Below, one piece after another: positions 13,837 through 20,668 of a stretch of 38,975 nucleotides of DNA (positions are counted from its first letter, which is position 1; the number at the start of each line of letters is the position of its first letter). The DNA comes from an uncultured Gammaproteobacteria bacterium (GTDB lineage: Bacteria; Pseudomonadota; Gammaproteobacteria; Poriferisulfidales; GCA-002705445). The translations under genes were made by a program, and so were the position numbers. Below the pieces are notes generated by a model that worked only from the letters and a program-made list of their open reading frames with translations, was not told the DNA's origin and did not search any database. Where the stretch lies: contig CAJXAV010000010.1 in assembly GCA_913050095.1 (NCBI GenBank), positions 1-38,975 of the forward strand. The letters run 5' to 3'.

Positions 13837-13865
13837 TTGTATATTTATATAAAATAAAGTATATT
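13837..13865 (+). promoter_or_regulatory. Probable sigma-70 promoter of the metX-metW unit
   Basis: TTGTAT (13837-13842) and TATATT (13860-13865) are separated by 17 bases, matching four of six and five of six consensus positions. Transcription would begin near 13872, just before the riboswitch P1 stem, which makes the assignment more convincing than the hexamers alone. Confidence 0.6.
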
Positions 13866-13871
13866 GCATAA

Positions 13872-13919
13872 AACACCGATTTGAAGTCAGCTTGCGGGTG
13901 GGAAAATACAGCTAAAGCG
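13872..13919 (+). promoter_or_regulatory. SAM-II/SAM-V-type riboswitch aptamer upstream of metX
   Basis: The segment has the H-type pseudoknot layout of the SAM-II/SAM-V superfamily. P1 is CACC (13874-13877) with GGTG (13897-13900). Its loop begins GATTTGA and ends CTTGC, both family hallmarks. The 3' tail GGAAAATACAGCTAAAGCG carries the conserved GCTAAA, and its AAGC (13915-13918) can pair back to GCTT (13890-13893) in the loop. SAM-V is known from abundant marine bacteria ahead of methionine genes, and the next gene is metX. I recognise it from memory of the consensus, not from a covariance search; SAM-V rather than SAM-II is the better guess from the habitat. Confidence 0.78.
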
Positions 13920-13929
13920 AATATATTAA

Positions 13930-13989
13930 AAGCACAGCTTAATTCCCTTCATATAAAAAAATGATTTCAAATTTGAAATTTTTGGAATT
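13930..13989 (+). promoter_or_regulatory. Putative translational expression platform sequestering the metX ribosome-binding site
   Basis: AATTCC (13941-13946) can pair with GGAATT (13984-13989), which contains the GGA Shine-Dalgarno 7 bases before the ATG at 13994. Inside it sits a perfect 16-base palindrome (13964-13979), able to form a 6-bp hairpin with an AATT loop. Just upstream, AAGC (13930-13933) and GCTT (13937-13940) form a small hairpin. That GCTT could also compete with the aptamer loop for AAGC 13915-13918. The pairings are seen; the switching mechanism is inferred. Confidence 0.5.
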
Positions 13990-13993
13990 TTAT

Positions 13994-15127
13994 ATGACAA
14001 ATAAATTTAATAAAAATTCTGTTGGCATTGTAGAACCTAAGACTGTTGAGATAAAACAAAGTCTTAAGCTAGATTGTGGAAAAACTTTAGATAACTTTTC
14101 ATTAGTATATGAAACTTATGGAAAATTAAATGAAAAAAAAAATAACGCTATATTAATTTGTCATGCTTTATCTGGAGATCATCATGCTGCAGGTTATCAC
14201 AAGGAAGATGATAAGAAGCCTGGTTGGTGGGATTCATGTATTGGACCAGGAAAACCGTTTGACACAAATAAGTTCTTTATTGTTTCTTTGAATAATCTTG
14301 GAGGCTGTCAAGGGTCGACGGGGCCAAATACAATTGATAAAAAAACAAAAAAAGAATACGGGCCTGATTTTCCAATTGTAACTGTTAAAGATTGGGTAAA
14401 TAGTCAAAAACTTTTAGCAGATTTTTTAGAAATTGATATATGGGCTTGTGTTATTGGCGGCAGTCTTGGAGGCATGCAAGCATTGCAATGGTCAATAAGT
14501 TATCCTAACAAAATTAAAAACTCTATTGTAGTCGCAGCCGCAGCAAAACTATCAGCGCAAAACATTGCTTTTAATGAAGTCGCAAGACAAGCAATCATTA
14601 CAGATCCTGACTTTCATGACGGTAGATACAATAATTTCGGCGTAATACCAAAAAGAGGTCTTAGTATTGCAAGAATGTTGGGACATATTACATATTTATC
14701 AGATGACTCAATGAGACAAAAATTTGGAAGAGATCTTAGAGAAGGCAAGCTTCATTTTGGATATGACGTAGATTTTCAAGTTGAGAGTTACCTAAGATAT
14801 CAGGCGCAAGCATTTGTAGAAAGATTTGATGCAAATACATATTTGTTAATGACAAAGGCTTTAGACTATTTTGATCCTGCAGAAGAATTTGAAGGTGATC
14901 TTTCAAAAGCATTTGAAAAAACAGATTCTAAATTTTTAGTCATATCTTTTACTAGTGATTGGAGATTTTCATCAACAAAGTCACGCGAAATTGTTAAATC
15001 ACTCGTGAAAGCTAGAAAGAAAGTATCGTACTCAGAAATTGAGGCAAATCAGGGGCATGACGCTTTTTTAATGCCTATACCTCAGTATCTAGATGTTTTG
15101 AAAAACTTTATGGATAACATAAATTAA
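13994..15127 (+). CDS. metX: Homoserine O-acyltransferase (succinyl- or acetyl-)
   Basis: Acylates homoserine at the start of methionine synthesis. Alpha/beta-hydrolase fold: [46 protein letters not shown], nucleophile elbow [12 protein letters not shown], the Asp in FTSDWRFS, and the His in [12 protein letters not shown]. With the ATG at 13994 it is 377 residues, matching Pseudomonas MetX, with GGA at the right distance. An ATG at 13961 would add 11 residues and lie inside the palindromic leader, so it is less likely. In gammaproteobacteria with metW next door, such enzymes are often succinyltransferases; the acyl donor cannot be fixed here. Likely controlled by the riboswitch. Confidence 0.94.
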
Positions 15128-15143
15128 ATACTGGTAATAATAT

Positions 15144-15743
15144 ATGGATAGAAAAGATTTTAAAATAATATCTAATTGGATAAAAAAAGATTCAACTGTA
15201 CTTGATTTAGGATGCGGGGATTCTACATTATTAGATTTCTTAACATCAACTAAAAATATAACAGGCTATGGTTTTGAGAAAGATCTAGAAAAAGTAAAGG
15301 AATCTATAAAAAAAAATATTAGCGTAATACAGTCAGATTTCTACACTGGGCTCGGAGAATATTTCGAAAGTAGTTTTTTTGATTATGCTGTTATGACTCA
15401 TGCTCTTCAAGAAAATAAGAATCCTGATAAGATTTTAAAAGAAATGTTGAGAGTTGCAAATGAAGGTATTGTAACATTTCCAAATATGGGTTTTTGGAAA
15501 AACAGGGTAGAACTAGGATTTCTAGGACGTATGCCAATATCAAAGTCATTGCCAAACAAATGGTTTGATACTCCAAATATTCATTTGTGTACTTTTAAAG
15601 ATTTTGAAGATTTATGTAAAGATCTAGAAATTAAAATTCTTGAAAAAAAGGTTTTAGATAATAGTTATTCAAGTAATTTTTTATGTAAACTCTCACCAAA
15701 TTTTTTTGGAGAAATTGCATTATATCGATTTAAAAAGGATTAG
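15144..15743 (+). CDS. metW: Methionine biosynthesis protein MetW
   Basis: Methyltransferase-fold protein that accompanies MetX in many proteobacteria and is reported to be needed for activity of some MetX enzymes. 199 residues with VLDLGCGDSTLLDFL, YAVMTHALQENKNPDKILKE, VTFPNMGFWKNRVELGF LGRMP, and PNKWFDTPNIHLCTFKDFEDLC. It lies 16 bases after metX and should share its promoter and riboswitch. The 3' end overlaps the stop of the opposing TerB-like gene by 4 bases. Confidence 0.94.
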   Translation: MDRKDFKIISNWIKKDSTVLDLGCGDSTLLDFLTSTKNITGYGFEKDLEKVKESIKKNISVIQSDFYTGLGEYFESSFFDYAVMTHALQENKNPDKILKEMLRVANEGIVTFPNMGFWKNRVELGFLGRMPISKSLPNKWFDTPNIHLCTFKDFEDLCKDLEIKILEKKVLDNSYSSNFLCKLSPNFFGEIALYRFKKD

Positions 15744-16302: not shown

Positions 16303-16701
16303 ATGGCTGATTATACAGAAGAAGAGTTTATGTTTATAACAAAAACTGTTATGAAAGTTTTAGACGCTTGGAATCTTACTACTGAACAGACCGTTCAGGT
16401 GCTTGGTCTGCCCGAGCAGACAAAAAAGCGTCAGCTAGACAAATATAGAAGCTTAAAAGCATTCCCTAAAAATGATGTAACAATCAGAAGATTGAGCCAT
16501 ATTGTTGGAATATCTGACGCGTTAAGGACTACATTCCCTAGAAATATAAACATGGCAGAAAAATGGATGAAAACTGAGCACAGAAGGTTTAATAATAATA
16601 CACCTTTACATATAATTCTTGAAGAAGGCGTTAATGGATTATGTAAAGTAAGATCAGAATTAGATTGCACTTTTGCTTGGAATTCTTCATCTACAAATTA
16701 A
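16303..16701 (+). CDS. Xre/MbcA/ParS-family (DUF2384) antitoxin-like protein, orphan
   Basis: 132 residues. The N-terminal helices (VMKVLDAWNLTTEQTVQVLG) suit the helical DNA-binding region of Xre/ParS proteins. The C-terminal half (RLSHIVGISDALRTTF, NTPLHIILEEGVNGLCKVRSELD) matches the toxin-binding domain pattern of Xre/MbcA/ParS antitoxins. Their usual partner is a RES-domain toxin next door. None is present: the gene 9 bases downstream encodes a SET methyltransferase, and the upstream neighbour is the divergent TerB-like gene. It may therefore be a stand-alone regulator. Domain call is from sequence pattern; role is open. An imperfect inverted repeat (CTTTGT...ACAAAG, about 16222-16245) lies in the divergent spacer and could be an operator. 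Confidence 0.72.
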   Translation: MADYTEEEFMFITKTVMKVLDAWNLTTEQTVQVLGLPEQTKKRQLDKYRSLKAFPKNDVTIRRLSHIVGISDALRTTFPRNINMAEKWMKTEHRRFNNNTPLHIILEEGVNGLCKVRSELDCTFAWNSSSTN

Positions 16702-16710
16702 AAAATATTT

Positions 16711-17223
16711 ATGAAAAAATTATATACAATTAAAAATTCAAAGTTACACGGAAAAGGATTATTTGCTAAACAAAATATTAAAGCAGGTACGAATGTAGTT
16801 GAATACGTTGGAGAGAAGATTACTAAAGCACAATCCGATAAGATTGCAGAAGCTCAGTTAGAAAAATCTCAAAAAAATGTAGACGAAGGACAAGTTTATA
16901 TTTTTACTTTAGATAATAAATACGATATCAATGGAAATGTTAGTTACAATAATGCAAGATTAATGAATCACTCCTGTAATCCAAATTGTGACACTGATAT
17001 TGTAGATGGAAAAATTTGGATTAGATCATTCAGAGATATAAAAAAAGGAGATGAATTAACCTATGATTATGGTTTTGTTTTTGATGTTGATGATTTTAGA
17101 GATCATGTATGTAAATGTGGTTCAAGAAAGTGTGTAGGCTTTATAGTTACAGAAACTGATTGGAAAAAACTAAGAAAATATTTGTTAAGGCTTGCAAAAA
17201 ATTGCACAAAGGCTAATCAATAA
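16711..17223 (+). CDS. SET-domain protein-lysine methyltransferase
   Basis: 170-residue single-domain SET protein, predicted to methylate lysines with SAM. Seen in order: SKLHGKGLFAKQNIKAG (cofactor loop), VEYVGEKIT, the pseudoknot motif LMNHSCNPNC (Asn86-His87-Ser88-Cys89), GDELTYDYGF (catalytic-site Tyr118/Tyr120), and a post-SET CKCGSRKC (Cys134, 136, 141) which with Cys89 can bind zinc. All key residues are intact, so it is probably active. The target is unknown; ribosomal or DNA-binding proteins are candidates. The tail overlaps the opposing yrfG-like gene by 11 bases. It appears to form a two-gene unit with the preceding antitoxin-like gene. Confidence 0.88.
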   Translation: MKKLYTIKNSKLHGKGLFAKQNIKAGTNVVEYVGEKITKAQSDKIAEAQLEKSQKNVDEGQVYIFTLDNKYDINGNVSYNNARLMNHSCNPNCDTDIVDGKIWIRSFRDIKKGDELTYDYGFVFDVDDFRDHVCKCGSRKCVGFIVTETDWKKLRKYLLRLAKNCTKANQ

Positions 17224-19891: not shown

Positions 19892-20668
19892 ATGATTAAA
19901 TTATTAGATTTTAGCAAAAAACTTTTTGCAACACTTCTAGTAGTAATCTCTTTGCCAGCAATATCACTAGCAGGTGGTCACAGCAGTGGCTTAAGTCCTG
20001 ATGATACGGTTGGGGTTACTTTCTGGATAATTTCCATTGCTATGGTCGCATCTACTGTATTCTTTCTTATTGAAAGAGACAGAGTAAGCGCTAAATGGAA
20101 AACATCATTAACAGTTGTAGGTTTGGTTACATTAATCGCTGCAGTGCACTACTTCTACATGAGAGAAGTTTGGGTATCTACAGGAGATTCACCAACAGTT
20201 TTAAGATACATAGATTGGTTATTAACTGTACCTCTACAAATGATTGAATTCTACTTGATTCTAGCAGCTGTCACAGTTGTTTCTGCAGGAGTCTTCTGGA
20301 GACTATTAATAGGTACATTAGTAATGCTTGTTGGTGGTTTCGCTGGAGAAGCAGGAATGATGTCTGCAATGACAGGTTTTATCATAGGGATGATCGGTTG
20401 GTTATACATTCTTTATGAGATCTTTGCTGGTGAAGCAAGTAAAGCTAACGCAGCTAGCGGAAGTGCAGCATGTCAAACAGCTTTCGGCGCTATGCGTTTA
20501 ATTGTTACAGTAGGTTGGGCTATTTATCCTCTAGGCTACTTCTTAGGCTACTTAGCAGGTGGAACAGACCCAGCAACAGTAAACATTGTTTACAACTTAG
20601 CTGACTTTGTTAATAAAATCGCATTCGGTGTGATTATTTGGGCAGCAGCTGTAAAAGAATCTGCGTAA
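19892..20668 (+). CDS. Proteorhodopsin, blue-tuned light-driven proton pump
   Basis: Seven-helix retinal protein that pumps protons out of the cell in light. 258 residues from the ATG at 19892, which has GAGGA upstream; the ATG at 19847 would put 15 odd residues before the signal peptide. Signal peptide about residues 1-27 (ending PAISLA). Key residues, with standard proteorhodopsin numbers in brackets: His86 (75), counter-ion Asp108 (97) in RYIDWLLTVPL, Gln116 (105) which tunes to blue, donor Glu119 (108), Schiff-base Lys242 (231) in DFVNKIAFG. The residue set D/Q/E is that of a proton pump, not a sodium or chloride pump. Followed by a strong terminator, then the retinal-synthesis genes. Confidence 0.98.
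   Translation: MIKLLDFSKKLFATLLVVISLPAISLAGGHSSGLSPDDTVGVTFWIISIAMVASTVFFLIERDRVSAKWKTSLTVVGLVTLIAAVHYFYMREVWVSTGDSPTVLRYIDWLLTVPLQMIEFYLILAAVTVVSAGVFWRLLIGTLVMLVGGFAGEAGMMSAMTGFIIGMIGWLYILYEIFAGEASKANAASGSAACQTAFGAMRLIVTVGWAIYPLGYFLGYLAGGTDPATVNIVYNLADFVNKIAFGVIIWAAAVKESA

Follow-up and report, generated by a model that had tools for sequence, protein, structure and literature searches.

A SAM-II-type riboswitch before metX-metW in a streamlined marine gammaproteobacterium and its predicted translational output

The metX-metW genes in the 38,975-nucleotide stretch of DNA analysed here (the window) are preceded by a compact pseudoknot, and this raises the questions of which RNA class the pseudoknot belongs to and how it might act on genes that begin at some distance from it. 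The element is flanked by the end of yggT (13830) and by metX, in the order aptamer core (13874-13920), metX start (13994) and metW. Since the metX product (13994-15127, +) matches NF047916 MetX_succinyl with 648.6 bits (cut-off 560), it is an enzyme of the homoserine O-succinyltransferase type, and metW (15144-15743, +) matches TIGR02081 with 228.4 bits (cut-off 189.5). Comparison of leaders showed that the ATG at 13994 is the metX start kept among congeners; the ATG at 13961, chosen by the ORF finder, is not conserved in congeners and was rejected. On the basis of the sequence and the congeners, a putative Shine-Dalgarno sequence, GGA (13984-13986, +), is located 7 nt 5' of the ATG. The initial annotation took the host to be a proteorhodopsin-bearing gammaproteobacterium, in agreement with a bacteriorhodopsin-like gene within the window (Bac_rhodopsin domain at 20009-20656, 158.7 bits).

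Two further observations concern other genes. A second, distant MetX-like protein (37% identity) is encoded in this genome (G000:C19:7526-8572) and also in most congeners, and no SAM-II element was seen at this second locus. Moreover, a SET-domain protein (16711-17223; PF00856, 89.8 bits), here in a small marine bacterial genome, is encoded directly 3' of a gene with an Xre/MbcA/ParS-type antitoxin domain (16303-16701), beside which no toxin gene was recognised.

Aptamer core and family assignment

The core at 13874-13920 (+) reads CACC-GATTTGA-AGT-CAGCTTGC-G-GGTG-GGAAAATACA-GCTAAAGC-GA, and the compact pseudoknot with P1 CACC/GGTG, GATTTGA and CTTGC that had been described 5' of metX is present in the sequence as stated. 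Specifically, the P1 5' strand CACC (13874-13877, +) forms 4 bp with the P1 3' strand GGTG (13897-13900, +). L1, GATTTGAAGTC (13878-13888, +), consists of GATTTGA (13878-13884), the third strand of the SAM pocket, plus the linker, and C13888 is common to linker and P2. The P2 5' strand CAGCTTGC (13888-13895, +), which includes CTTGC (13891-13895), forms the pseudoknot with the P2 3' strand GCTAAAGC (13911-13918, +), the latter being invariant across congeners. The CACC/GGTG and CAGCTTGC/GCTAAAGC pairings follow each other in the correct order for an H-type topology. SAM-II aptamers contact their ligand through the pocket segments GATTTGA, CTTGC and GCTAAA, and all three are identical in the window and in the congeners. 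The contact roles of these segments have been described, and T13913 takes the place of the bulged U whose partner in the SAM-V and SAM-II structures is the adenine of SAM (PMC6061858).

A bit score above an Rfam gathering cut-off, to which the initial annotation had looked for support, was not obtained: the best family was RF00521 (SAM_alpha) with 15.4 bits against a cut-off of 36. In a control, one of 18 gammaproteobacterial loci that carry the same core outside the own family passed this cut-off, most other clear SAM-II copies tested scored 27-36 bits with RF00521, and five SAR11/HIMB59-type SAM-II loci fell short of E 1. The shortfall is due to the detection threshold and does not describe the RNA itself; the Rfam SAM_alpha model fails to recognise most SAM-II copies from lineages other than the one it was trained on.

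A covariance model (R1) was therefore of interest that had been built from 36 outgroup elements (mixed gammaproteobacteria, SAR86, SAR11 and HIMB59), none of them from the own family. R1 matched the window at 13871-13922 with 59.2 bits (E 1.9e-15; runner-up in the window 9.3 bits), and the metX-leader element had an E-value of 5.2e-14 in the whole genome, values that are optimistic because the training set was chosen by its core pattern. P1 and the extra P2a pairs are conserved outside the core pattern and are, together with the link to metX, independent of the choice of training set. Two P1 pairs show two-sided changes in the outgroup elements; the second pair is A-U here and G-C in most gammaproteobacteria, with two-sided changes in 17 of the 36 outgroup elements, a difference that was found with a pattern leaving P1 unfixed. 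The P2 core pairs are invariant, partly since the sets were picked by pattern, which makes P2 covariation uninformative. The lack of a hit to any SAM model, together with a lack of covariation in the two helices of homologous leaders, had been named as an argument against a SAM riboswitch; homologous leaders do exist, and P1 has changed on both sides across lineages.

The initial annotation had left the class open between SAM-II and SAM-V. Its SAM-II part, a SAM-II-type aptamer before metX-metW, is retained, and its SAM-V part is not: the SAM-V model RF01826 gave no match at the metX-leader site, the metX start codon is located 76 nt past GCTAAAGC and 74 nt past the core end (13920), no Shine-Dalgarno sequence or start codon was found inside or near P2 or P2a, and the element has the extra 3' pairs (C-G, G-C) beyond the core that SAM-V is described as lacking and SAM-II as having (PMC2704228). 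A SAM-V riboswitch would cover the Shine-Dalgarno sequence directly inside P2a, and the shared pseudoknot core, the AT-rich marine host and translational control would all suit it; given the four observations above, we rejected this identity as very improbable. We regard it as equally improbable that a pseudoknot of the same fold senses another ligand, e.g. SAH or a SAM relative: SAM aptamer variants can switch ligand, and the spermidine class uses one (PMC10853860), but GATTTGA, CTTGC and GCTAAA are intact here and the gene is that of methionine entry. The least probable reading is that the conserved motif, in DNA or RNA, is something else altogether, such as a protein site or a chance occurrence. 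It would fit the lack of an Rfam match above gathering and the local minimum-energy folding of the isolated element, which is no better than that of shuffles (z 0.63) in a model that cannot form pseudoknots; it is opposed by the 59-bit match to the outgroup model, the strict link to metX and the two-sided P1 changes. By homology, we consider the leader element of metX to be a genuine SAM-II riboswitch, with S-adenosylmethionine (SAM) as its presumed ligand. Methionine synthesis in this streamlined marine gammaproteobacterium would thereby come under direct control by SAM at its first committed step.

Distribution and promoter

The 1.08-Mb genome contains a single match to the pattern GATTTGA-N3-10-CTTGC-N10-30-GCTAAA. 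With wider gaps, the core pattern was found in 148 of the 369 genomes of the class (40%), and a reversed control pattern gave about 9 single matches; the occurrence of the core is not due to chance, and SAM-II is common in Gammaproteobacteria. The element is present 5' of metX in all ten metX-keeping genomes of the genus (this one included) and in one genome of a second (sister) genus, and R1 scores for the ten genomes and the second genus range between 53 and 61 bits. R1 gave background only, and no element, in a congener that is 98% complete and has no metX ortholog (G004), and likewise background only in the other two families; no copies were found in viral contigs. SAM-II elements outside Alphaproteobacteria have been known since 2005-2007 (PMC1273637, PMC2258182), and in 2007 their occurrence in Gammaproteobacteria was described as sporadic (PMC2258182). 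In 2014, a survey of regulons based on Rfam models reported no SAM_alpha regulons in Gammaproteobacteria, and a new metXZ element in Betaproteobacteria (PMC4239095). The novelty that had been attached to the locus was overrated, as SAM-II before metX is already known in SAR11 (PMC2704228) and the class is as widespread in Gammaproteobacteria as the above count indicates.

The putative promoter (13837-13865, +) consists of TTGTAT (13837-13842), a 17-nt spacer and TATATT (13860-13865). What had been called a good -35/-10 pair was overstated with respect to its strength, with 8 of 12 consensus matches (it is not listed in a scan with a threshold of 9 of 12) and a -35 box that is weak, having 3 of 6 matches in most of the genus's genomes; what stands is the conserved -10 box and its spacing. 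The -10 box (TATATT; TATTAT in G010) is located 7-8 nt 5' of P1 in 10 of 10 genomes of the genus, and in the second genus 9 nt before CACC. Transcription would start at the first base of P1, fitting the conserved -10 spacing, and a promoter just 5' of P1 is typical of SAM-II (PMC1273637).

Predicted output stage of the metX leader

Our preferred reading, in which we have reasonable confidence, is that the metX-metW mRNA begins with a SAM-II riboswitch that works as a translational OFF switch. SAM as ligand, the OFF direction and translation as the controlled step are what we infer, and the alternative helix and the changed access to the ribosome site are predictions of the folding models. When SAM is scarce, L1 and the adjoining GGGAA (13900-13904, +; end of P1 and start of L3) would pair downstream with GATTTCAAATT (13963-13973, +) and TTCCC (13943-13947, +), respectively, and these pairings would keep the ribosome-binding site and the start codon open, such that MetX is made. 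When SAM is plentiful, the aptamer would be locked into the pseudoknot and its downstream complement set free, and the part of the leader from this complement to the start codon would fold over the ribosome-binding site or the start codon. This output stage is an addition to the initial annotation, which gave no output mechanism.

Access to the ribosome site was estimated as the cost of opening positions -16 to +6, once with the aptamer strands free to pair and once with them withheld, the latter as a proxy for SAM binding, in a nested-only energy model that cannot form the pseudoknot. Withholding the aptamer raised the opening cost in all 11 leaders, which are related such that their tests are not independent, by a mean of 5.0 kcal/mol; the shuffled-spacer control gave 1.13±0.45, with a maximum of 2.40 in 100. 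For the leader in the window the cost rose from 3.7 to 8.8 kcal/mol. Outgroup leaders without terminators showed no mean effect (0.47 vs 0.28), and thus the procedure by itself does not produce the effect. The rise in opening cost was small in three leaders (G001, G005 and G006) at 15°C, a temperature closer to that of the sea. In the window, TCATATAAAA (13949-13958, +) is the proposed sequestor; it can pair without mismatch over 10 bp with the start region TTTTATATGA (13988-13997), and this pairing was seen in the aptamer-blocked minimum-energy fold at 15°C. GGA is not more paired in the window species when the aptamer is blocked, the effect coming from the start region. Different stretches pair with the Shine-Dalgarno sequence in other congeners, and in G007, G008 and G011 it is predicted to be paired in both states by the nested-only model.

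With respect to the alternative helix, the RNAalifold consensus fold of ten leaders contains an 11-bp helix between L1 and GATTTCAAATT, which lies at -31 to -21 of metX and also forms the 5' side of a local hairpin next to the ribosome-binding site. The dG of this duplex is -9.5 (p 0.023 vs shuffles). In all 11 leaders, including that of the sister genus with its different linker, the best L1 complement falls between -29 and -35, and its energy averages -9.6 kcal/mol for the ten in the genus compared with -5.1±0.43 kcal/mol for shuffled sequences. In the helix 92% of the cells are paired, against 60% at best when it is slid. No two-sided changes relative to the commonest pair were found in the L1 helix, because SAM binding, i.e. 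the ligand pocket, fixes its 5' strand; pairing-keeping changes on the free side are mostly transitions, so that the support is mostly one-sided, and one variable position of the linker shows G-U, G-C as well as A-U. The 5-bp complementarity GGGAA/TTCCC is present, by eye, in 10 of 10 genomes of the genus, with a one-base shift in G006 and compensating bases in G010 (AGGAA/TTCCT); it is not countable on the MAFFT alignment, in which the copies stand one or two columns out of register. In the predicted SAM-free folds of most leaders (15°C), the L1 helix is formed with GGGAA/TTCCC-type pairs nested inside. TTCCC as a general anti-Shine-Dalgarno sequence was rejected, since in most congeners, as judged by eye, it makes no more than 2-3 pairs with GGA.

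These data suggest, tentatively and with odds that we put slightly below even, that L1, the strand that wraps around SAM, doubles as an anti-sequestor by pairing, over 9-11 bp, with an element some 30 nt 5' of the start codon, such that ligand binding competes with the opening of a distant ribosome-binding site. A description of an L1-strand anti-sequestor was not found in the literature searched, which was largely without subscription journals, and its generality in SAR11/HIMB59 received no overall support.

The main competing explanation is a transcriptional SAM-II riboswitch, in which SAM triggers premature termination upstream of metX, by an intrinsic terminator or through Rho. Transcription is the step that most SAM-II elements control (PMC2258182, PMC6061858), and in canonical gammaproteobacterial copies a T-run follows P2 by 26-43 nt in 21 of 24; most of these T-runs precede a gene that reads as metZ (a reading of the sequence, with no family search), and in 13 of the 24 copies a complement of at least 6 nt to the P2 3' strand is a possible antiterminator. 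T-runs are also present in the leaders of some congeners (G003, G007). Against this explanation, no terminator-like site was found between the aptamer and metX in the window, where the only such site is upstream, inside the yggT gene, and an intrinsic terminator was rejected; the T-runs are moreover not conserved among congeners, and four leaders (G000, G002, G010 and G011) lack a usable one. We consider termination before metX to be unlikely, although a Rho-dependent form of it may escape judgement by sequence.

In the preferred reading, that of a translational OFF switch, the expression platform is probably unusual; a few SAM-II outputs at the level of translation have been described (PMC6061858, PMC9373788, PMC9481103). 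If the output holds, one aptamer would serve different outputs in related lineages, with terminators in SAR86 and most gammaproteobacteria and a distal translational switch here, and the L1 anti-sequestor, if true, would add a third mode of SAM-II output to terminators and to the burial of the Shine-Dalgarno sequence in P2a. The metX leader adds a member to the known SAM-II class, with the unusual translational output as a computed case.

Related elements and known systems

Several related elements were noted elsewhere. RF02424 (Bp2_287, listed as an 'sRNA' of Burkholderia) gives matches on the strand opposite to SAM-II elements, in the window at 13877-13939 (-) and at L043:1462-1601 (-) with 40.3 bits; the consensus printed for it looks like a SAM-II aptamer in reverse complement, and the family may therefore represent a mis-stranded SAM-II riboswitch. 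In SAR86-type genomes a SAM-II element is followed by a SAM-I/IV riboswitch (L116:5734-5923 and L084:5368-5549 (-); SAM-I/IV scores 51.6 and 54 bits, above the cut-off), and the tandem precedes a gene for what, from its sequence, looks to be an OmpW-like outer membrane protein, an unusual target; seven examples of SAM-II plus SAM-I/IV tandems are known (PMC9481103). SAM-V-like elements in the congeners G007 and G006 (L192:1695-1765 (-) and L193:177-247 (+); 33.5 and 26.1 bits, cut-off 41) end in a Shine-Dalgarno sequence right 5' of a conserved 70-aa ORF with no family assigned, which is absent from the genome studied here. Finally, a SAM_alpha-like element in G003 (30 bits; L191:1031-1105 (-)) is located before a fatty-acid desaturase/alkane-hydroxylase-like gene and is possibly due to bin contamination.

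Compared with the SAM-II type as defined by RF00521 (SAM_alpha; Corbino 2005, PMC1273637), the metX element is alike in its H-type pseudoknot, GATTTGA/CTTGC/GCTAAA core, promoter just 5' of P1 and downstream methionine gene; it differs in scoring below the Rfam cut-off, in having a 4-bp P1 and no long P2a, and apparently in using a distal translational output in place of a terminator. The metXZ element of Betaproteobacteria (Leyn 2014, PMC4239095) is likewise a pseudoknot leader, of metXW/metZ, with an alternative fold, but it was described as a new element and is followed by terminators; the comparison was made by description, so that its SAM-II identity is a lead only, and a search of plasmid records for Burkholderiales metX, made for this comparison, found none. 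SAM-II before metX in SAR11 (Meyer 2009, PMC2704228) is close in sequence, many SAR11-labelled loci having an identical ACCGATTTGA...CAGCTTGCGGGT core, whereas the host here is gammaproteobacterial, the leaders differ after the aptamer, and SAR11/HIMB59 leaders taken together gave no positive result in the access test. The SAM-II elements of SAR86 and other gammaproteobacteria share the aptamer and the pathway, mostly with metZ-like genes and in some SAR86 with metX-like genes; unlike here, most have a terminator within ~45 nt of P2, and in many a complement of the P2 3' strand is a possible antiterminator.

Translational control and the ligand pocket are shared with the Sargasso Sea metX SAM-II and with SAM-V (PMC6061858), where the Shine-Dalgarno sequence is buried directly in P2a, a position in which this leader has none. 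The Sinorhizobium meliloti metA SAM-II (PMC9373788) is alike in acting on translation and in a start codon 74 nt away, but there the controlled Shine-Dalgarno sequence lies inside the riboswitch, whereas here the proposed switch is a long-range helix beside the start codon.
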